A stretch of 64,000 nucleotides of DNA from Flavobacteriaceae bacterium (GTDB lineage Bacteria > Bacteroidota > Bacteroidia > Flavobacteriales > Flavobacteriaceae): positions 3,900 to 67,899 of the forward strand of contig PALG01000005.1 of assembly GCA_002707025.1 (NCBI GenBank). Reading direction: 5' to 3'. A model generated the notes under the pieces. The model worked only from the letters and a program-made list of their open reading frames with translations, was not told where the DNA came from and made no database searches. Below are positions 2,742-13,647 of this stretch, one piece after another. Positions within the stretch are counted from its first letter, which is position 1, and each line of letters opens with the position of its first letter. The position numbers and the translations under genes were made by a program.

Positions 2742-2882
2742 GTACAGCGCTCAAATACTATTCGGTAGTTACCTATTTACTTTCGTTTACAATTATTTAC
2801 ATTCACTTTTAATATTGAGTAGCAATAACTTATTAAATTCTTTTTTCAATAGTTTGAGTGGTAAAAGTTATTGAAACAAAAA

Positions 2883-2902
2883 ACCCTACTTTTCAGTAGG
2901 GT
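2883..2902 (-). terminator. Terminator of the T9SS/PorP/OmpA operon
   Basis: An 8-base perfect stem (ACCCTACT / AGTAGGGT) with a 4-base loop lies about 30 bases after the OmpA stop. Read on the minus strand it is followed by TTTTTTG, a standard intrinsic terminator. Confidence 0.8.
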
Positions 2903-2930
2903 CTTGATTATTTGGTTAGTTATGAAACTT

Positions 2931-4817
2931 TTAACGCTCTACGATAATAAATTCGGATCTTCTGTTTTTCTGATGATCTGCGTCGCTACAGTTATCACCA
3001 CAAGGTACAGCTGGGTTTTCCTCCCCGAATCCTTCCCCGCTAATCCTAGAGGCATCAATTCCTTTAGAAATAACATACTGTACGGTAGATTGCGCACGTC
3101 TTTCAGAAAGTTCTTTATTGTATTGATCATTTCCTCTATTGTCGGTATAACTATTCACCTTAATCTTCATATTAGGGTATTTTTGCATGATATCAACCAG
3201 CTTATCCAATTCGAATGCAGCTTGTGGCTTAATATTATGCTTATCATAATCGAAAAGAATCGGATCTAGCTCAACCTTGTCATCCACAATAATGGCTTCT
3301 ATAGGTCGCAGTTTGATAGTTTTGGAAACTTTTCCTTTTCCTTGCGCCGCTACTTCTACAGAATTAGGCTCATACCCTCTCATAACGGCTTGTACAATAT
3401 GGTCTTGATCGCAAGCGCCTTCAATACTTCCGTTTCCGTCTTCTGCAGTCGTTCTTGAAGTAAGCATGTTTTCTTCCCCATCGTATAAGTCTAATCGAGC
3501 GCCGAAGATAGGCTCTCCAGTATATTCATTTACTACCATGATGTCCATATCTACTTTACAAGGTGGCTCAACTGGAGTAATCATATAAATATCGTCACTT
3601 CCCTTTCCACCTTTTCGGTTGGAACTCATATATCCAACTTTAGTGTTTGGATTATAGATGAAAGCGAAGTCATCATCCTCTGTATTGGCCCCTTTTCCTA
3701 AGTTTACCGGATCTTTGAATCCATTGCCACTGGCTTCCGCATAAAATCCGTCCAATCCCCCGAGTCCCATATGTCCATCACTAGAAAAATATAGGGCTCC
3801 GTTAGCGTCGATGTAAGGGAATACTTCTTTTCCTTCGGTATTGATATTACTTCCTAACGCTTTAGGAGTTCCAAAGTTTCCTTCCGCATCCACACTTACC
3901 CTATAAATATCTGATCCTCCTTGCCCACCGGGCATATCACTTACAAAATATAAAGTTTTACCATCGGGGCTTAGAGCTGGATGCCCTGTAGAGTATTCAC
4001 TACTATTGAAAGGCACTGCATAGGTCCCTTTCCAACCGCCATTCACCCATTCGGAATAATACAAATTGATTTGATTGATGCCTTCCTCACTCTTTTCGTA
4101 TTTTCCGTTCAAATAGTCGTTACGATCAAAATACATGCGTTTTCCATCGGGGGAAAAGGTCATATTCCCTTCATGAAATTTGGTATTTACATCGCCTTCC
4201 AAAAGGGTTGCGTTTTTAACCGTATTCCCAACATGCTCTGCTTTATAAATATCCAAAAAAGGCTCTTCGTTCCAGTGGTATTTTTTACGGGAGGTATTTC
4301 TTGCGGAAGAAAAGTAGAAATCCTTTTCTTTGGTTATTCCCCCAAATTCTGAATATTCGGTATTGATATCTTCCAGGTTTTTAGCTTCAAAAGTGGCATA
4401 CCCTTCAACGATTTGGGGAACATAATTAGGGTTCTTCATAAATTCCTGTGCTCTCGAATCGCTGGGTTCCATTTCAGCAAACTTTTTCATCCAAGTGTTG
4501 TAATCACTATACTTGCCATTCGCTTTAAGGACTTGTGCATAATTGTAAACCGTTTCTGGTTTTACACTACGGCCTTTTACCACACGTTTATAGTAAGATT
4601 CTGCTTTTTTGGTATCGTTGATATAATAATAGGAGTTTCCTAATTGTTCAAAAACGTAGCGGTCCCCTTTCCCTTTTTTAATCAATTTTTGATAGGCTTC
4701 GGCTGCATCGGTATACGCAAGCCTATTATAGAGTTCATCTGCTTTTTTGGTGTCTTTATTTTGAGCAGTGACAAATGTTACTGCACATATAAGAAGAAGT
4801 GTAAAAATATTTTTCAT
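2931..4817 (-). CDS. TPR/PD40/OmpA-domain outer-membrane-associated protein
   Basis: A 628-residue exported protein. Signal peptide MKNIFTLLLICAVTFVTAQ; TPR-like helices at about 25-125; WD40-like PD40 propeller repeats at about 150-410 (FSPDGKRMYF, LSPDGKTLYFVSD, YFSSDGHMGLGGLDGF); a carboxypeptidase-regulatory-like domain at about 425-505; and a C-terminal OmpA domain at about 515-628, with YTDNRGNDQYNKELSERRA and HQKNRRSE as peptidoglycan-binding signatures. This domain order is that of the PorE-like proteins and of the OmpA proteins found beside PorP/SprF in gliding and T9SS loci. It is the last gene of the operon, 25 bases after porP/sprF. The inferred role is to tie the surface machinery to the cell wall. 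Confidence 0.88.
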   Translation of the reverse strand: MKNIFTLLLICAVTFVTAQNKDTKKADELYNRLAYTDAAEAYQKLIKKGKGDRYVFEQLGNSYYYINDTKKAESYYKRVVKGRSVKPETVYNYAQVLKANGKYSDYNTWMKKFAEMEPSDSRAQEFMKNPNYVPQIVEGYATFEAKNLEDINTEYSEFGGITKEKDFYFSSARNTSRKKYHWNEEPFLDIYKAEHVGNTVKNATLLEGDVNTKFHEGNMTFSPDGKRMYFDRNDYLNGKYEKSEEGINQINLYYSEWVNGGWKGTYAVPFNSSEYSTGHPALSPDGKTLYFVSDMPGGQGGSDIYRVSVDAEGNFGTPKALGSNINTEGKEVFPYIDANGALYFSSDGHMGLGGLDGFYAEASGNGFKDPVNLGKGANTEDDDFAFIYNPNTKVGYMSSNRKGGKGSDDIYMITPVEPPCKVDMDIMVVNEYTGEPIFGARLDLYDGEENMLTSRTTAEDGNGSIEGACDQDHIVQAVMRGYEPNSVEVAAQGKGKVSKTIKLRPIEAIIVDDKVELDPILFDYDKHNIKPQAAFELDKLVDIMQKYPNMKIKVNSYTDNRGNDQYNKELSERRAQSTVQYVISKGIDASRISGEGFGEENPAVPCGDNCSDADHQKNRRSEFIIVER

Positions 4818-4842
4818 GTTACTGAACTTATAAAGTTAACTA

Positions 4843-5757
4843 TTAGAAGTATCTAGGTGAACGAAGTGATTTTTGCTTGAAAATAAGGTCGAAAGTTAAA
4901 ATAACTTCGTGCGATGCATTGGTCACCACATCCAATTCACTTACAACGTGATCGTAAGCGTATCCTATTCTTAGGAAATCGGTCGCCTGAAACCCAACCA
5001 TCCCTGCAAAAGAATCTTCCAAACGGTAAGAAGCTCCTATTTCAAACTTTTCGTAGAATAGTGCGTTTAAGTTGACATCGAAGGAAAGTGGTGCATCAAA
5101 AGCAGATTTCACCATGGTAGAAGGTTTTAATTTGAAGTTTTCATTAACCTGAAATACATATCCTGCTGTTGCAAAATAGTGCATGGTTTCACTTCCATAT
5201 TTCAATCCATTTTCATCTAAATGTACCGACGTTAAGAAGTTAGGTACCGAAAGACCAATATAAAAATTGTCACCATAGAAAAAAGCACCCGCTCCTACGT
5301 TAGGATACGTATTATTAATATCGGTAGAGAAAAAAGGGTCATTAATATCCTGAGTCGTTAAATCGGTTAATCCCACATCATGAAAGGTGGCTCCCGCTTT
5401 TATACCTAATGCCAAATACAAGCTTTCACTCATTTGAAGGGTATAGGAGAAATCTGCATACACATTGGTTTCTTTCACTGGACCTAACTCATCTTTAATT
5501 GCTGAAAGCCCCAAACCTACTTTATCTGATATTGGAGAGTGTCCCGAAAAAGTAATGGTTTCTGGAGCGCCCTCTAGTCCAGACCACTGCTTACGGTACA
5601 AAGCCGTTAAAGACAGTGCTTCTTTAGAGCCTGCATATGCTGGGTTTACGACATTCATATTGTACATGTATTGTGTGTACTGAGGATCTTGCTGAGCCGT
5701 TACAATACTGGTACCTAGTATACAAATTAAAATTACTAATAGTGACAGCTTTTTCAT
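4843..5757 (-). CDS. PorP/SprF family type IX secretion membrane protein
   Basis: A 304-residue protein with a signal peptide (to about residue 21) followed by the family hallmark QDPQYTQYMYNMNVVNPAYA, then alternating amphipathic strands of an outer-membrane barrel ending in an aromatic residue (RSPRYF). The PorP/SprF family averages about 300-330 residues, so it is complete. In Flavobacterium johnsoniae SprF is needed for secretion of the adhesin SprB, and SprF-like proteins encoded beside type B sorting-domain proteins act as partners for those substrates. Here it lies directly downstream of two such substrates (30-base gap) and upstream of the OmpA protein, so it is probably their dedicated partner. 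Confidence 0.9.
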   Translation of the reverse strand: MKKLSLLVILICILGTSIVTAQQDPQYTQYMYNMNVVNPAYAGSKEALSLTALYRKQWSGLEGAPETITFSGHSPISDKVGLGLSAIKDELGPVKETNVYADFSYTLQMSESLYLALGIKAGATFHDVGLTDLTTQDINDPFFSTDINNTYPNVGAGAFFYGDNFYIGLSVPNFLTSVHLDENGLKYGSETMHYFATAGYVFQVNENFKLKPSTMVKSAFDAPLSFDVNLNALFYEKFEIGASYRLEDSFAGMVGFQATDFLRIGYAYDHVVSELDVVTNASHEVILTFDLIFKQKSLRSPRYF

Positions 5758-5787
5758 TATTATGGTTGTTTATTATTCTCGTTAGTT

Positions 5788-8109
5788 TTATTCTTCGGTG
5801 TTAATATATATCCAGCCTGTTTTTAGTTCTCCGTATACAGGATCTGGGTTTTCAAACTTTAATACATAGAAATAGGTTCCGGTCCCTAAGGCGTTCCCGT
5901 CGCTATCGATTCCACAGAAATCATTGATATAGTCTTCATTTTGAAAAACGCTCAATCCATATCTATTGAATATTTCCAAGGATAGTACTCCACTACGATC
6001 TACTAAAAACTGAAGATCTAAGCAATCGTTAAGACCATCACCATTAGGGGAAAGCCCTTCTGAAATGGTACAATTATCAATATCATAAGGCAAAATAGTT
6101 ACTTCTGCCGTCCCAGAACATTCTCCCAAGAGGATTTCTACGGTATAGGTAAGAGAGCCTATTTCATTTTCAGGAATGGTGATTTCCAAGGTTGCTTCGG
6201 AAGCACCTGTAATAAGTTCTCCATTTAAATACCATTGATACGTAACATCTGTTTCATCGGTAACGGCCGTTAGAATTTGTGTCTCGTTAGGACAAGTTCT
6301 AAAATCGTCTCCCAATGTTACCACCAAGTCTTCCCTTGGAGAAACCAAAATAGTATCTTCAGAAATACAATTTCCAGCGGTAACCACTACACGATACAGT
6401 CCTGTTTGAGTAATGGTAAGGGTAGCTTGGGTGGCTCCTTCAATTTCATTCCCATCCAAAAACCATTGGTAGTTTGCTTCGGAAGGATTGTAATTGGCAG
6501 GCGATGCATCCAATATTACGGCCTCAGTAAAGCACGTTTCAAAATCGTCTCCTAAATCTATTACAGGGCTTTCAGAAAAAAGAATTGTAACTGTTTCCGA
6601 TTTTTCACATCCTTGGGAAGTAACTGTCACCGTATAATCGCCTGAAGTGGTAACTGTAATAGATTGCGTAGTTTGCCCTGTACTCCACAAGAAACTGGCA
6701 TCAGAAGGATTGATTCCGTCTAGTGCTGCAGTTATCGTATAAGAAGCTTCGTCACAAACTATTTGATCTCCGCCAAGATCGATGGTAAATGCCAAAATAC
6801 TTACGGTAATAGCATCGGTGGACACACAGCCATTACCTGTAACTTCAGCAGTATAAAGCCCTGCTTCCGTAACTTCAAGGGTTGGGTTGGTTTCGCCCAC
6901 AATCTCTACACCATCTTGGAACCATTTATAGCTAATATCGGTCAATTCGGAAGGATTGGTCACTGTAGCATCCAAAATTGTTGGAGAATTGTCACATCCT
7001 AGGATATCTTCTCCCAAATCGAATGCAGGAAGCGAGAAAAATTCGACCAAGACCTCGTCATTTGCTGTACACCCACCAGAGGCTAGGGAAACTTCAACCC
7101 TATAAAGCCCTGTTTCGGAAACATCTAAAGTAGGATTCGTCTCTCCTGGGATTTCCACTCCATCCCTAAACCACATATAGGTAGCATCTGGAAGGGTTCC
7201 TGCATCTAACGTAATTACCTCACCCGTACAAAGGGCATCTCCAGAACCTAATAAAATATCCCCTCCTAAATCTACCGCACCAATATTGAAGCTATTGGCT
7301 TCCAAAAAAACGGCCATATCGAAAGCTGTGTCGCTTTCATCGGCCACTACTAGTTTTATGGTATAGTCATTCCCACTAACCACCGTCGCTGTTGCGGTAA
7401 GCTGAATGGTTTGTCCATTAAAATCGATAGGAGCTTCAGCAGCAGGGATGGTATTCACGTTTGGGTTGGCAACTGGCTCAAAATTATATTGATCGAAAAA
7501 CTCTTCATTTACAGCATTGCATTGCCCTATTACTTCAGGGCGAATATTGGTTACTTCAATAGGAGTCGTCGTTCCAGGTAGTACCGCCAAGTTTTGGGAG
7601 ATTCCCGTACTTTGGTCTGTTAGGATAAAAGCAAAGGCATCGGAAAAGGTACATTCAAAATTTTCGTTGTATTCTTCCGAAGCCATGATAAAATCAAAGC
7701 TGATTTCGGTCACAAAAGGAGTAAAATCAAACTGAATCCACGAAGCATTGTTGGTACTTGTTGCTGTGGTGTTTGCTTCTAAGTCGGCATCTCCAGGCCA
7801 ACCAAACCCTCCGTCACTATGGACTGTTAAGTTAGGTCCTGGGGCATTTTGCACATTTCCAGAACTCAAAATCACTCCCGATGAGAAAGGGAAATCGGAG
7901 CCGTTTGCGTCAAAAAAAGCAATTCCATTTACATCTCCAAAATCGGTTCCAGTAGAAGAAGAAAAGTTGGAAACTTCCGCACAATCTGAATTGATCAACA
8001 CATCCTCTACAAGCTCTTGTACCGTGAGGGTTTCATCGATCGAAATTTGAGCAAAACCCGCAAAAGTGCTTAGAAAGAAAAATGTAAGTAGTATTTTCTT
8101 TAGTGGCAT
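5788..8109 (-). CDS. T9SS type B surface protein with choice-of-anchor L and Ig-like repeats
   Basis: A 773-residue secreted protein. Signal peptide ending GFAQ (about residue 21); a choice-of-anchor L domain at about 40-280, with motif DFIMASEEYNE; then about five Ig/PKD-like repeats of 80-90 residues, each beginning DLG(G/D)D and carrying a Cys pair and the phrase YxWxxxG (for example YMWFRDGVEIPGETNPTLDV). The C-terminus (about 680-773) is a type B sorting domain, with SEGLSPNGDGLND, IFNRYG and GTGTYFYVLKF. It should be exported by the T9SS and exposed on or released from the cell surface as an adhesin-like or matrix protein. It shares its last Ig repeat and sorting domain with the gene 18 bases upstream. 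Confidence 0.87.
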   Translation of the reverse strand: MPLKKILLTFFFLSTFAGFAQISIDETLTVQELVEDVLINSDCAEVSNFSSSTGTDFGDVNGIAFFDANGSDFPFSSGVILSSGNVQNAPGPNLTVHSDGGFGWPGDADLEANTTATSTNNASWIQFDFTPFVTEISFDFIMASEEYNENFECTFSDAFAFILTDQSTGISQNLAVLPGTTTPIEVTNIRPEVIGQCNAVNEEFFDQYNFEPVANPNVNTIPAAEAPIDFNGQTIQLTATATVVSGNDYTIKLVVADESDTAFDMAVFLEANSFNIGAVDLGGDILLGSGDALCTGEVITLDAGTLPDATYMWFRDGVEIPGETNPTLDVSETGLYRVEVSLASGGCTANDEVLVEFFSLPAFDLGEDILGCDNSPTILDATVTNPSELTDISYKWFQDGVEIVGETNPTLEVTEAGLYTAEVTGNGCVSTDAITVSILAFTIDLGGDQIVCDEASYTITAALDGINPSDASFLWSTGQTTQSITVTTSGDYTVTVTSQGCEKSETVTILFSESPVIDLGDDFETCFTEAVILDASPANYNPSEANYQWFLDGNEIEGATQATLTITQTGLYRVVVTAGNCISEDTILVSPREDLVVTLGDDFRTCPNETQILTAVTDETDVTYQWYLNGELITGASEATLEITIPENEIGSLTYTVEILLGECSGTAEVTILPYDIDNCTISEGLSPNGDGLNDCLDLQFLVDRSGVLSLEIFNRYGLSVFQNEDYINDFCGIDSDGNALGTGTYFYVLKFENPDPVYGELKTGWIYINTEE

Positions 8110-8127
8110 CTTGGTTGTTTTATGATA

Positions 8128-11100
8128 TTAGTTTTCTGCTTTATTAATATAAATCCATCCTGTTTTTACCTCACCATAAATGGCGTCAGGAGTATTAAAT
8201 TTCAACACATAAAAATACGTTCCCGTAGGAAGCTCATTCCCGTCTTGGTCAATTCCGCAGAATTCATTTATATAATCTGAATTCTGGTAAACACTCATCC
8301 CATAACGATTGAACATTTCCAAAGAAAAGCCATCGGTACGATCGGATAGGAATTCTAAATCCAAACAATCGTTAAGGCCATCGCCGTTAGGGGACAGTCC
8401 TTCAGAAATAGTACAATTATCTACATCGTATAATTGAACTGTTATATCTGCTGAAGACACACAAGATCCTGCCGCTACTTCAACAGTATAAATTTGTCCC
8501 CCAACCGTATTGGAAGGAATGGAAAACTCGAGTGTACTATTGGTTTCCCCTGTAAGGATTTCACCATTTAAATACCATTGGTAAGTAACATCACTTTGAT
8601 CACTACTAGCCGTGAGCACATTGGTCTCATCTGGACAAGTTTTGAAATCATCACCAATAGTTACTATAGGATTCTCATTAATCTCAATGTTTATTGAATC
8701 GGTAACGACACACGAGCCTACCGTAATTTCTAGATCATAGGTTCCAGAGGCGTCCACCACTATGGTTTCACTGGTTTCACCTGTGCTCCATAGGTAGGAG
8801 ATTCCATCGGTGTTTCCAGTAATTTCAGGAATAATTTCGAAACTCTCTCCTTCACAAAGCACAACATCTTGTCCTAAATCGAGCACCGGAGGTTCGGTAA
8901 CGGTAATTGTAGTCGATAAGGTTTCCTCATTACAAGGTGGGAAAGTAACCGTTACAGTGTAAGTCCCCGCTGAAGTAGGAGTAAACACTGCATCGGTGGA
9001 CACAATGGCTCCATCTCCATCGACCCATTCATAGGTGACAATGGTTAAATCGACATCTGGGTTTTGTGGAGTAGCGTTTAATTCTGGAAAATCCTCACCT
9101 TGACATATTTCAAAACTTTCAGAAAGGTCGATTTGAAGGTCTACCGTTTCACCCACCAACAAATCAAATTCTACAGTGCTATAACACGTAGGCTCTGAAG
9201 CTTTTTCAACCCGAACATAAATGGTTTCCGGATTTTCTGTGTTTTCGTAAGCAGAAGGCGTATCAATGGCTCCAATATTGGCTTCGGCATTTAACTGACT
9301 TAAATGGAAGGTTATATTAAACTGTGCAGGGTCTTGACCATCCAAAATAGTAGGAATCTGACTTTCTAAATCGAAGGTTGCTGATCCTGTCCCCCCAGAT
9401 TGATCACAACTAAACATATCGTCTGGAGTGACAATTTGAGGCTGGCTATTTTGCAAGGACAAGGTAATATCATCGATCGCAAGATCGTTACCACAGCCAC
9501 CTATGGAGTTGTTGATCAATACCAACTGAATGTCTGAGTTTGCCCCTGTGTTGAAATTGATCAAATACTCTTGCCAGTTAGGGTCTGGACCATTAGGAAT
9601 ATCCCCTGTATTGGTTTCTTCTATTAGGTTTCCAGAAGTATCTTCAATTCTGAAAATAACGTTGGAAGGAATACTTGTTCCTCCACAAATATTGGTATCG
9701 GTATCATACACCGTTGTAATCCAGGCGCTGAAGAAATAGTCCCCATCTGGATTCAAAGTGATGGTTCTTCTATAGAATTCCCCTGGGTTAAAATCGGCAT
9801 TCACAAAAAGCATTCTACCGTCTACATCCCCTTCCGTATGGTCTTCCATGCCTACATGCCAACCGGTATTTAAGCCTGTAGAGGTATTGCTAATGGTGTA
9901 TTCGCCATCTTCTATCTGACTTAAATCGTTACAGATATACGTTGTAGAAGCTCCATTTAAATCACAGACCCGTCCAGTACCTGTACCAAAGTTCTCTTCA
10001 AAATCAACACTTTCACAAACGGGCTCAATGTTACAATCTGGGCTGGTAAGGAACGTGATCTCAACACTTTCCGTTACTGTACAACCAGCTACGGTTACGT
10101 CTACTGAATACGTTCCTGTTGCAGAAACCGTGATGGTTTGTGTCGTTTCCGAAGTATTCCATAAAAAGGTAGCATCTGCAGGGTCTGCGCCATCTAATGC
10201 TGCAGTGATATCATAAGAAGGGGTATCACAAAAAACTTGATCACCTCCCAAATCCACACTAAAGCTTCCTGGCGCTGGAGTCACTTCTACCTCATCTTCC
10301 AAAACCACTACATCCCCATTACAGTTACTGTAAGTGACCCTAGCTGTATAAACCGAAACTTCGGTAGGACAAACCTCAATTGTAGGATCGGTCCCTATGA
10401 CGGTCCCCGAAGCATCCAACCATTCAAAAACGTAGGTTGGCGCTCCATCTGGAGTAAAACGCCAAGCTTCATTAGTGGCTGTCCAAGGAGAGTCTGAAGT
10501 ATTTCTTCCGGGTGGTACATACGCAATGTCTCCATCATTATTTTGAATACCAATAACAGCATTTCCACTATTCCATGAAGGGCAAGAGGGTTTATCCTGA
10601 ATGTAAATTTCAATTACGTTGGAAAACTCATAAAAAACTACCATCTGGGTAGCCAATAAGTTATTACATGCCCCAGAAAACATGGGCACTTCAAAATAAG
10701 AAACCACCAAAACCCGATTAGGGAAGGTGCCCAAAACCTCATAGGCAATCTCTTCCGTGGTAGAAACAGAAGGATCAATATCATGTCCAGGAGTAAAAAC
10801 GTTAGCTTCTGCTAACGTAGGGTTGGTATTGTTTGGTAAATTTTCTGTAAAAGACCATCCATTGGTCGTGTCTCCCGGGTCTACATCAAAACGTATCACC
10901 CCATTGGAACCTACCTGAAATTCTGTTTCCACATTTCCAAAAAAACAAAAGTCATAAGGAAGGTTATCTACCGGAGACCAAGCATCGTCAATATTTGGAT
11001 TCAAAGAATTGGCCAAACCATCAAATGGAAAGGGAGGGTTATAGGGAATACCTTCGACCGTGTATGTTTCACTGATGGTCTCAAAAGTTTCCAAGAAATT

Positions 11101-11280
11101 CGCGGTAAGGTCTGTACATCCAGAACCATTAGAGCAATCAATGGTAACGTCAGGTCCTGCATCCACAAAAAGAGAACCAGGCCCTTGCGCAAAAGAAGTC
11201 ATGGATCCTAGAAAAAAAACAGCAATAACAAAGAGATTTTTCAACTCAAAGGAGCGAAAAAAAGATAGATATATCTTCAT
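8128..11280 (-). CDS. Large T9SS type B surface protein with Ig-like repeats
   Basis: A 1050-residue exported protein; signal peptide to about residue 31 (SFAQ). The N-terminal about 250 residues form a globular domain with FQVGSNGVIRFD and an IGIQNNDGDIAYVPPGRNTS segment, resembling nidogen-like or T9SS-associated surface domains. Ig/PKD-like repeats follow, interrupted at about 410-600 by a jelly-roll-like segment (EFYRRTITLNPDGDYFFSAW), then more Ig repeats. The end (about 955-1050) is a type B sorting domain nearly the same as in the next gene. It is the first gene of the four-gene minus-strand operon. Function inferred: surface adhesin or matrix component. Ligand unknown. Confidence 0.86.
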   Translation of the reverse strand: MKIYLSFFRSFELKNLFVIAVFFLGSMTSFAQGPGSLFVDAGPDVTIDCSNGSGCTDLTANFLETFETISETYTVEGIPYNPPFPFDGLANSLNPNIDDAWSPVDNLPYDFCFFGNVETEFQVGSNGVIRFDVDPGDTTNGWSFTENLPNNTNPTLAEANVFTPGHDIDPSVSTTEEIAYEVLGTFPNRVLVVSYFEVPMFSGACNNLLATQMVVFYEFSNVIEIYIQDKPSCPSWNSGNAVIGIQNNDGDIAYVPPGRNTSDSPWTATNEAWRFTPDGAPTYVFEWLDASGTVIGTDPTIEVCPTEVSVYTARVTYSNCNGDVVVLEDEVEVTPAPGSFSVDLGGDQVFCDTPSYDITAALDGADPADATFLWNTSETTQTITVSATGTYSVDVTVAGCTVTESVEITFLTSPDCNIEPVCESVDFEENFGTGTGRVCDLNGASTTYICNDLSQIEDGEYTISNTSTGLNTGWHVGMEDHTEGDVDGRMLFVNADFNPGEFYRRTITLNPDGDYFFSAWITTVYDTDTNICGGTSIPSNVIFRIEDTSGNLIEETNTGDIPNGPDPNWQEYLINFNTGANSDIQLVLINNSIGGCGNDLAIDDITLSLQNSQPQIVTPDDMFSCDQSGGTGSATFDLESQIPTILDGQDPAQFNITFHLSQLNAEANIGAIDTPSAYENTENPETIYVRVEKASEPTCYSTVEFDLLVGETVDLQIDLSESFEICQGEDFPELNATPQNPDVDLTIVTYEWVDGDGAIVSTDAVFTPTSAGTYTVTVTFPPCNEETLSTTITVTEPPVLDLGQDVVLCEGESFEIIPEITGNTDGISYLWSTGETSETIVVDASGTYDLEITVGSCVVTDSINIEINENPIVTIGDDFKTCPDETNVLTASSDQSDVTYQWYLNGEILTGETNSTLEFSIPSNTVGGQIYTVEVAAGSCVSSADITVQLYDVDNCTISEGLSPNGDGLNDCLDLEFLSDRTDGFSLEMFNRYGMSVYQNSDYINEFCGIDQDGNELPTGTYFYVLKFNTPDAIYGEVKTGWIYINKAEN

Positions 11281-11402
11281 TTTAAAAGATGATTGGTGGT
11301 TATTTTGCGACTAAAGTAAAGAAAAAACTGAAATAAGTAATGGCAATATTAAATTTTAGTTAAGTTGAAATAAATTTCCGATTAATTACACCTACCCAAA
11401 GT

Positions 11403-12365
11403 TTATTTCCCAATTGAAAAAATAGCATATACCGGAAAGTGATCGCTAAAACCCCCACGGTATTTTGTCCCTACATAGGTTCGAAACGGAAAGCCTTTAT
11501 ACCCTCCTTTGTATTCTTGAATATTCTTCGGTTTATAAATGCGTGCTGTTTTAAACTGGAACTTATTATCATGTCCCTTGAGAAAATTATGAGATACGAT
11601 GATCTGATCAAACAAATGCCAAGCATACCGGTGTCCCAAACTCCCGCTTTCGCGGGTTAACAGTAATTCCATAGGATTGTAAAAATTATCTGAAGTTAGG
11701 GTCTTTACACTTTTACTGTGTGGGTCATCATTGAAATCTCCCATGATCAAGATTCTTGCCTCCGGTTCCCCTTTTAGGATTTCCTGAACAATCTCCAAGT
11801 TTTTTTGAGCCGCTTTTACCCTTTTATACGAAGTCTCCTCGGTACCCTGCCTTCTTGATGGCCAATGGTTTACCAAAACGTGCAGTGGCATTCCTCCTAG
11901 TATTCCATATACATGAAGAATATCACGAGTAAAATCCCGCTCACCAAGTTCATTTTCAACATATAAGGAATGAGCCTCTTTATTCTTGACGCTGAAATAA
12001 TCCTTTCTATATAAAAGCGCCGTGTCAATTCCCCTTTCATCTGGAGAATCAAAATGCACGTAACCGTATTGTTTTTCCTTTAGGTGTTTTGAGTGTGCCA
12101 ATTGCTCCAAAACATTACTGTTTTCAACTTCTGCTACGCCCAAAATAACAGGAGGATGTCCAATTTCCTTATAGCCCAATTTGGAGATAACTTTTCCTAA
12201 TTTCCGTAGCTTTTTCTGAAGTCGCTTATCATTCCATTTTTTGGAAGCTTCTGCTGTAAAGTCATCGTCTAAGGTTTTTGGGTCGTCTACCGTATCAAAT
12301 AGATTTTCAAGGTTGTAGAACCCTACTGTAAAATAATTATGGGTATTTGAAGCCTCCTGAAACAT
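11403..12365 (-). CDS. Endonuclease/exonuclease/phosphatase family hydrolase (no signal peptide)
   Basis: A 320-residue EEP-superfamily (DNase I-like) protein. Visible motifs: FYNLENLFD at the N-terminus; GVAEVENSNVL with the metal-binding Glu; HFDSPDERGIDTALLY; VNHWPSRR with a catalytic-type His; MGDFNDDPHS; and the C-terminal SDHFPVYAIF with the Asp-His pair. All key EEP residues are present. Unlike its paralog at 61507-62556 it has no export signal, so it should act in the cytoplasm. Substrate is not determined: phosphodiester or phosphomonoester. It is a single gene divergent from hflX with about 73 bases between them. Confidence 0.85.
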   Translation of the reverse strand: MFQEASNTHNYFTVGFYNLENLFDTVDDPKTLDDDFTAEASKKWNDKRLQKKLRKLGKVISKLGYKEIGHPPVILGVAEVENSNVLEQLAHSKHLKEKQYGYVHFDSPDERGIDTALLYRKDYFSVKNKEAHSLYVENELGERDFTRDILHVYGILGGMPLHVLVNHWPSRRQGTEETSYKRVKAAQKNLEIVQEILKGEPEARILIMGDFNDDPHSKSVKTLTSDNFYNPMELLLTRESGSLGHRYAWHLFDQIIVSHNFLKGHDNKFQFKTARIYKPKNIQEYKGGYKGFPFRTYVGTKYRGGFSDHFPVYAIFSIGK

Positions 12366-12438: not shown

Positions 12439-13647
12439 ATGCTAGAACCGAAAGAACACGAATATGAAAAAGTAGTATTAATTGGGCTCATCACCAAAAT
12501 TCAGGATGAAGAAAAGTCCAAAGAGTACCTAGACGAATTGGAGTTCCTTGCTTATACCGCTGGAGGGGAAGTCTTAAAACGATTTACCCAAAAAATGGAA
12601 GTCCCGAACCCTAAGACATTTATTGGTACGGGAAAGATGGAAGAAGTAAGGGACTATGTAAAGGAACATGAAGTGGGCACGGCTATTTTTGATGATGAAC
12701 TTTCTCCTGCCCAACAAAAAAATATTGAGAAACTGCTGAAGTGTAAGATTATCGATCGAACCAATCTTATTCTCGATATTTTTGCCCAACGGGCACAAAC
12801 CAGTTATGCAAGAACCCAAGTAGAGCTCGCCCAGTACGAATACCTACTTCCAAGACTAGCAGGAATGTGGACGCACCTTGAAAGACAGCGAGGGGGTATT
12901 GGAATGCGGGGTCCTGGTGAAACCGAGATTGAAACCGACCGCCGAATTGTTAGGGACCGTATTGCCCTTTTAAAAAAGAAGCTGGAAAAAATCGACAAAC
13001 AAATGGAGGTGCAACGCGGCAACCGGGGAAGCTTGGTTCGTGTAGCCTTGGTAGGATATACCAATGTGGGAAAATCTACCCTTATGAATGTCTTAAGCAA
13101 GAGTGAAGTATTTGCCGAAAACAAGCTTTTTGCGACTTTAGATACGACCGTACGAAAAGTCGTGATTGGCAATCTACCTTTTTTATTAAGTGATACGGTA
13201 GGGTTTATTAGAAAACTTCCCACCCAATTGGTCGAATCCTTTAAAAGTACCTTGGATGAAGTTCGGGAAGCCGATTTATTATTGCACGTAGTGGATATTT
13301 CGCATGGTTCCTTTGAAGACCATATTGCTTCGGTGAATAAAATTTTGGATGAAATAGATAGCAAAGACAAACCTACTTTAATGGTTTTTAATAAAATTGA
13401 TGCGTATCAACCCGAAATAATTGAGGAAGATGATTTAGTTTCAGAAAAAACCACCGCCCATTACTCACTTGCTGAATGGAAGAAAACCTACATGGCGCGA
13501 ACCGATGGCGATGCTATTTTTGTTTCCGCCTTGAACAAAGAAAACTGGGAGGAATTCCGAAGGATTGTCTATGAAAAAGTGCGGGATATACACATTACCA
13601 GATTTCCCTACAATAATTTCCTCTATCCGGAATATACAGAAGAATAA
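12439..13647 (+). CDS. hflX: GTPase HflX
   Basis: A 402-residue HflX GTPase, which binds 50S ribosomal subunits and splits or rescues stalled ribosomes, mainly under heat or antibiotic stress. The N-terminal HflX-specific domain covers residues 1-190, with the conserved TFIGTGKMEEV, IFDDELSPAQQKN and RGGIGMRGPGETEIETDRR. The G domain follows: G1 GYTNVGKST at about 205, DTVGFI (G3) at about 252, and FNKID (G4) at about 315. Length and motif order fit the family. It is monocistronic, with its own promoter box and a strong terminator shared with the convergent DUF3078 gene. Confidence 0.96.
   Translation: MLEPKEHEYEKVVLIGLITKIQDEEKSKEYLDELEFLAYTAGGEVLKRFTQKMEVPNPKTFIGTGKMEEVRDYVKEHEVGTAIFDDELSPAQQKNIEKLLKCKIIDRTNLILDIFAQRAQTSYARTQVELAQYEYLLPRLAGMWTHLERQRGGIGMRGPGETEIETDRRIVRDRIALLKKKLEKIDKQMEVQRGNRGSLVRVALVGYTNVGKSTLMNVLSKSEVFAENKLFATLDTTVRKVVIGNLPFLLSDTVGFIRKLPTQLVESFKSTLDEVREADLLLHVVDISHGSFEDHIASVNKILDEIDSKDKPTLMVFNKIDAYQPEIIEEDDLVSEKTTAHYSLAEWKKTYMARTDGDAIFVSALNKENWEEFRRIVYEKVRDIHITRFPYNNFLYPEYTEE

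Follow-up and report, generated by a model that had tools for sequence, protein, structure and literature searches.

How, having shared one translocon, are type B adhesins of the type IX secretion system (T9SS) allotted to a fixed or a moving state? This open question is raised in compact form by a locus in a 64,000-nucleotide stretch of a Flavobacteriaceae bacterium genome (assembly GCA_002707025.1, contig PALG01000005.1, positions 3,900 to 67,899 of the forward strand; hereafter, the window). Four minus-strand open reading frames (ORFs), separated by 18, 30 and 25 nt, lie there between positions 11280 and 2931; they encode two substrates with type B sorting domains (B1 and B2), a shuttle of the PorP/SprF kind and a PorE-like protein. 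Do both substrates travel on the one shuttle, and where does it hold them? From sequence comparisons and a structure model we conclude that the locus is probably a T9SS cassette for static display of type B proteins, anchored to the wall and carrying two cargos on one dedicated shuttle.

Two cargos and their probable carrier

The shuttle (4843..5757, minus strand; 304 aa) scores 293.6 bits with TIGR03519 (cut-off 90.55) and 302.3 with PF11751 PorP_SprF (cut-off 22.3). Its structure model, built from 26 sequences and of moderate confidence (predicted local distance difference test, pLDDT, 67.7), shows a barrel; the last strand finishes at residue 290, and a low-confidence tail follows. The model's top match in the PDB is chain F of a T9SS substrate complex (8gl6_F; E 9.6e-9, template-modelling score 0.62), which we take to be PorV; OmpG, OmpU and FadL entries rank lower, and sequence search found no solved relatives. 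The modelled fold is that of a FadL-type, PorV-like barrel.

Upstream of the shuttle and on the same strand are B2 (5788..8109; 773 aa), which adjoins it, and the more distal B1 (8128..11280; 1050 aa). Both have N-termini that are hydrophobic by eye, and both match CHU_C (PF13585), the Pfam type B sorting domain, at 81.5 bits for B1 and 75.1 for B2 (cut-off 27). Only B2 carries a choice-of-anchor L domain (NF038133; residues 35-274, 7288..8007, minus strand; 143.6 bits, cut-off 27); B1 has a conserved head at residues 30-300, a second conserved block at about 415-620, Ig/PKD-like repeats and the C-terminal sorting domain (CTD). We leave the B1 head unnamed, its structure model being too poor for a fold search (pLDDT 56.6). 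The fourth gene (2931..4817, minus strand; 628 aa) encodes a protein with TPR-like, PD40 propeller, CarboxypepD_reg-like and OmpA peptidoglycan-binding-type domains; in Pfam, PD40 (69.9) and OmpA (67.2; residues 521-607, 2997..3257, minus strand) exceed their cut-offs and the TPR matches fall below theirs.

It is at their sorting ends that the two substrates resemble each other. Over the last 100 residues (8131..8430 in B1, 5791..6090 in B2, both minus strand) they are 78% identical in amino acids—less than the near-identity claimed in the original prediction—whereas five other CTDs of the same genome (L005, L006, L012, L014, L015; weaker CHU_C matches were left out of this comparison) are 23-45% identical to B1 or B2, and one shared shuttle is therefore likely. 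Flavobacterium johnsoniae provides a yardstick: there, a CTD was accepted by the shuttle of another cargo whose CTD was 68% identical to it, and not by shuttles whose own cargos were 43% and 26% identical; one shuttle serves three substrates, and cognate pairing has been demonstrated (PMC12618676). By this measure, which comes from one organism, B1 and B2 would share the window shuttle, and the two other cassettes of the genome, on contigs C11 and C12, would operate without crossover.

Carriers and sorting ends also keep company across Flavobacteriaceae, as a comparison of cassettes called for by the original prediction revealed. For each of 104 shuttle/CTD pairs from 19 genomes we asked which pair of a second genome matched best; SprF and CTD pointed to the same one in 1359 of 1872 comparisons, where 200 within-genome shuffles gave a mean of 468 and a maximum of 573; for PorE cassettes alone (n=56) cognate matches numbered 608 of 898, against 336 when shuffled. 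Distance correlations, calculated for those 51 of 81 loci that have a CTD, PorE and HflX, agree: mean identities in these syntenic loci are 81% for HflX, 71% for SprF, 57% for PorE, 56% for the CTD and 24% for the head, and the partial r given HflX is 0.50 for SprF-CTD and 0.75 for SprF-PorE, values equalled in none of 999 permutations. The predicted pairing of the shuttle with type B substrates, and a common route for both of them, are thus well supported by comparative evidence together with the published biochemistry of relatives.

Separate histories of heads and sorting ends

The predicted difference between the N-terminal domains stands: the B1 and B2 heads have no match to each other. 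Each has counterparts elsewhere. For the anchor-L head of B2 they lie at the same position in loci L028, L031 and L063 (77, 77 and 69% identity), and the B1 head is 77-85% identical to the heads of L025-L027, L029, L033 and L038 and to the upstream-position head of L031. Judged by these identities, the heads are old, position-bound orthologues, the B1 type upstream and choice-of-anchor L beside the shuttle. The sorting ends group differently. In a tree of 49 CTDs, taken from loci up to L064 only, those of B1 and B2 are mutually nearest, as are the two of L063, and the two of L028 share a fork (89/80). A single clade of the four anchor-L CTDs is rejected by the approximately unbiased (AU) test (p 8e-49), as are the CTD set of the B1 heads (p 3e-6) and the anchor-L groupings of the window with L031 (7e-4) and with L063 (1e-4); the groups tested were defined from heads, but after the CTD tree was known. 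The exchangeable heads of the original prediction are therefore broadly borne out, but the details run the other way—the heads keep their positions and the CTDs group by locus—and, on the evidence of tree and tests, it is the sorting ends, not the heads, that changed and became alike within the locus.

Recent gene conversion of the two CTDs was considered and rejected. Over the last 105 residues they are identical at 75% of amino acids and 70% of nucleotides but at only 9 of 24 fourfold sites, which we read as saturated, so the likeness would not come from recent conversion; homogenisation appears to be either old or due to shared selection.

The same fourfold sites speak against taking B1 and B2 for the products of a recent duplication, their CTDs alike simply as young paralogues. 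The genes are indeed adjacent and their ends alike, but with heads that have no mutual match, each with orthologues at the same position elsewhere, such an origin is unlikely. We consider it very unlikely that only B2 uses the window shuttle and that B1 is served by another. A candidate for such a role does exist: of the four PorP/SprF genes in the genome three lie in type B / SprF / PorE-like triplets (the window, C11 and C12) and the fourth, on contig C28, has no type B neighbour within the stretch read; in F. johnsoniae, moreover, an orphan shuttle serves orphan substrates (PMC12618676). Nevertheless, the CTD tree places the sorting ends of B1 and B2 next to one another, their identity exceeds the 68% level of the published crosstalk, and in single-substrate loci orthologues of the B1 head directly precede an orthologue of the window shuttle.

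Several results count against a two-cargo cassette of the kind we propose. The NCBIfam type B model, TIGR04131, gives 32.5 and 27.7 in the two substrates, below its cut-off of 35 (ten relatives score 26.5 to 46.7), and for this reason B1 and B2 owe the name type B to their Pfam domain and their context; the PorE-type NCBIfam models give 350 (NF052230 T9SS_PorE, cut-off 600) and 450 (cut-off 620), for which reason we call the fourth protein PorE-like and not the same equivalog. SprA is split across two frames near C26:29278-29353 in the assembly (L294, C26:25500-35500), which may be either an assembly error or a genuine break of secretion in the strain. The fork uniting the B1 and B2 CTDs has a support of 91/92 and is unstarred, in six of ten two-substrate loci the proximal CTDs fall into a separate old clade (96/92), so that homogenised ends are not the rule, and the AU test does not reject a grouping of B2 with L028 alone (p 0.21). 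Finally, the SprF-head partial r given HflX is 0.36, again with none of 999 permutations as high, and the correlation of carrier with cargo is thus partly shared history.

The shuttle tail as a possible address

Beyond its last strand the window shuttle continues into the tail FKQKSLRSPRYF, which contains neither a CXC motif nor any cysteine and ends in SPRYF (residues 300-304; 4846..4860, minus strand). Such tails were surveyed at all TIGR03519 places in 18 further Flavobacteriaceae genomes, one per genus: 131 of 134 places were fetched, the three others scoring below 30 bits, and the C11, C12 and C28 shuttles were added; L264, a place of 86.7 bits with no shuttle ORF, was dropped, as were L170 (250 aa) and L151 (236 aa), both duplicate fragments. 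The survey comprises 133 shuttle genes, the window's own excluded, sorted into PRFF shuttles, with a PR[FY]F-type end; CXC shuttles, with CXC within the last 22 residues; and others.

PorE lies directly downstream of 56 of the 133 shuttles, and all 56 end in PR[FY][FY], with P and R invariant. It is downstream of none of the 30 CXC-tailed shuttles and none of the 37 with other tails, though four of the latter have a PorE-like gene upstream. The classes also differ in cysteines: the last 40 residues contain none in 66/66 PRFF shuttles and at least two in 30/30 CXC shuttles. The association of PRFF with PorE is strong if kinship is ignored (Fisher p 1.5e-27), and the three shuttles that lost the motif inside the PRFF clade (L152, L188, which has CXC, and L262) are all without PorE.

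A C-terminal extension is present on 22 of the 37 other-tail shuttles, the ends of these extensions being mutually alike; the other 15 include barrels almost without a tail. Of ten extension ends scanned, eight had Pfam SPOR as their top match, four of them over cut-off, and in whole-protein scans SPOR was over cut-off in 1 of 5. The extensions look SPOR-like, suggesting carriers with their own wall-binding domain. They measure about 200-690 aa; the 22 shuttles (L215, L221, L228, L230, L231, L236, L237, L240, L243, L248-L250, L252, L254-L261, L263) form one side of a branch of the shuttle tree, and 14 have a type B gene upstream.

With SPRYF at its end and a PorE-like partner beside it, the window shuttle is predicted to be wall-anchored and static and not tied to the gliding track, and these two features together, on which the original prediction did not remark in this sense, probably mark it so; we infer that PorE docks at PR[FY]F. 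A wider proposal is tentative, and we would not yet bet on it: that the periplasmic C-terminal end of a type B shuttle may be a mechanical address, PR[FY]F leading to PorE and so to the wall, a fused SPOR-like domain to the wall directly and CXC to the moving GldK track, and that the cargos of one shuttle may be held to one evolving CTD lock, their ends evolving in concert under unrelated heads. If true, one secretion route serves two destinations for adhesins, the fixed wall and the gliding machine. The survey itself yields a simple sequence rule, in the shuttle tail, that can be tested.

The rule has its exceptions, which we set against it here. Ten of the 133 shuttles (10/66 PRFF shuttles) have a PR[FY]F-type end but no PorE downstream. 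On the shuttle tree PRFF shows four changes, and there are only four independent contrasts, of which a mean of 3.6 run in the expected direction (sign test, median p 0.125); the tail rule is largely clade-bound. PorE is present at the C12-type site of the own genome (L006) but absent from that of L134, L155, L159 and L187, four of the ten, where the PRFF tail is kept, an apparent loss of PorE with retention of the tail; the site adjoins genes resembling, by eye, those for isopentenyl-diphosphate isomerase, 6-pyruvoyl-tetrahydropterin synthase and mannose-6-phosphate isomerase. Beyond the family we surveyed 46 loci, with shuttle ORFs recognised in 36, some of them from Flavobacteriaceae itself: of six PorE-adjacent shuttles, five from a single genome, two have a PR[FY]F end (L269, L297) and four do not (L285, L287, L303, L313). 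A phylum-wide tail rule was accordingly rejected, since shuttles of other families often end in CP[RK]F or otherwise and most PorE-adjacent ones are not PR[FY]F. The CP[RK]F ends (L272, L273, L299, L304, L307-L309, L312) resemble a blend of CXC and PR[FY]F; this is possibly the ancestral tail.

Two of these exceptions, the near-confinement of the motif to one clade and its persistence in 10 of 66 PRFF shuttles that have no PorE downstream, lend some weight to a different reading. On this view PR[FY]F does not dock PorE but either serves assembly into the outer membrane as a signal or is a neutral marker of the clade. Outer-membrane barrels generally end in an aromatic residue. We regard this reading as a doubtful but serious contender, for the CXC-tailed and SPOR-like shuttles of Flavobacteriaceae manage without PR[FY]F, the motif lies some ten residues past the last strand of the shuttle model, P and R do not vary among the 56 PorE-linked shuttles of the survey, and the three shuttles that lost the motif inside the clade have no PorE either. 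That the cassette delivers track-propelled gliding adhesins, in the manner of SprB and SprF, is extremely unlikely. The track protein GldJ is matched in the genome, at 964 bits, but the window shuttle's tail has no cysteine, whereas the CXC of the SprF tail, which is disulfide-bonded to the GldK track, is required for track coupling (PMC12635249), and PorE neighbours accompany static display (PMC12618676). CXC as a marker of GldJ proved uninformative, GldJ being matched in 19/19 genomes. No CXC-tailed shuttle is present in the own genome or in two others (G014, G025), although GldJ is matched in all (L007, the own C28 locus, L253, L247, L201); the C28 shuttle itself groups with CXC shuttles yet has no CXC motif.

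The cassette, its surroundings and known systems

As a static display cassette the locus could work as follows. B1 and B2 would cross the inner membrane by Sec and then pass the SprA translocon, as in the known pathway; the single shuttle would recognise both sorting ends, remove the two proteins from the translocon and remain as their outer-membrane anchor, as published for relatives; its periplasmic SPRYF tail would—the step we add ourselves—dock onto the PorE-like protein, whose OmpA domain would grip peptidoglycan. Both B1 and B2 would then be static adhesins. Because the two cargos use one carrier, their sorting ends would be kept alike and their heads left to separate histories.

By synteny the locus is old. 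Among related loci, taken as the best 80 of 573 confirmed shuttle-relative stretches with flanks and so leaning to close relatives, a PorE-like gene is downstream in 78/80, an endonuclease-like gene upstream in 39/80 and hflX in 59/80. The upstream type B gene is absent in two and cut by a contig end in ten; in the remaining 68 loci, 59 have one substrate and nine have two. L030, from the culturable Altibacter lentus, is a two-substrate relative. Seven loci have an extra type B gene 3' of PorE and three contain the triplet twice. One contig labelled Candidatus Rokubacteria (L045) carries a Flavobacteriaceae-type cassette with a shuttle of 74% identity, and is probably wrongly binned.

A terminator-like hairpin with a T-rich tail (2880..2905, minus strand) lies about 26 nt beyond the PorE-like stop codon and is terminator-like on the plus strand too; ORFs, profiles and hairpin confirm the predicted run of four minus-strand genes ending in one terminator. 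The description of this run as self-contained was too strong, as export depends on the T9SS core, represented by SprA and GldJ matches elsewhere in the genome, and an endonuclease-like gene (11403..12365, minus strand; weak ExeM/NucH match below cut-off, syntenic) lies 122 nt upstream of B1. We count this gene outside the cassette proper, as we do the syntenic hflX beyond it (12439..13647, plus strand), but since it shares the strand of B1 the transcript may begin either at B1 or further upstream. The flavobacterial promoter motif TANNTTTG has no match in 11280-11403 and is in no excess over the whole window (67 found, 77 expected), nor are sigma-70-like sites (38 found, 42 expected). The genome as a whole has 17 CHU_C matches among those listed, 11 of them flagged over cut-off. 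An equal type B sorting-domain score occurs at two contig ends, C9:85-339 and C23:179352-179606 (L013, L014), probably pieces of one giant type B gene (open frame >2200 aa) cut by the assembly.

The two-cargo cassette offers a natural system for finding the CTD residues that set carrier specificity, which swaps of five published motifs left unresolved; tail classes, SPOR-like shuttles and concerted sorting ends are all worth following. Among titles and abstracts of open-licence papers we found none that dealt with a PR[FY]F tail, with shuttles bearing a SPOR tail or with CTDs evolving in concert, and among open-licence papers none on choice-of-anchor L.

In its parts the cassette is an ordinary member of the known F. 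johnsoniae type B/shuttle/PorE operons, in a rarer two-cargo form. The closest described is Fjoh_3952 / Fjoh_3951 / Fjoh_3950, a type B substrate, SprF-like shuttle and PorE-like protein in which CTD display is static (PMC12618676): by description, not by sequence, the three gene kinds and their order are the same, but one substrate is reported there and the window has two. The PorE-PorP-type B (PG1035) complex of P. gingivalis, which is wall-bound (PMC9143113), shares the three-part build of type B protein, barrel and periplasmic TPR/propeller/OmpA protein; it is described with a single substrate, and its PorE is called a lipoprotein, whereas inspection by eye shows no lipobox in the window's PorE-like protein. 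A further parallel is Fjoh_1677 with three orphan substrates (PMC12618676): there too one shuttle goes with several type B substrates of like CTD, but it is not encoded beside them and their CTDs are >44% identical, whereas in the window shuttle and substrates form an operon-like run and the CTDs are 78% identical. SprB and SprF (PMC12635249), lastly, share with the cassette a type B substrate and a dedicated PorP/SprF carrier; as described, SprF has a tail CXC and no PorE neighbour, where the window shuttle ends in SPRYF and is followed by a PorE-like gene.

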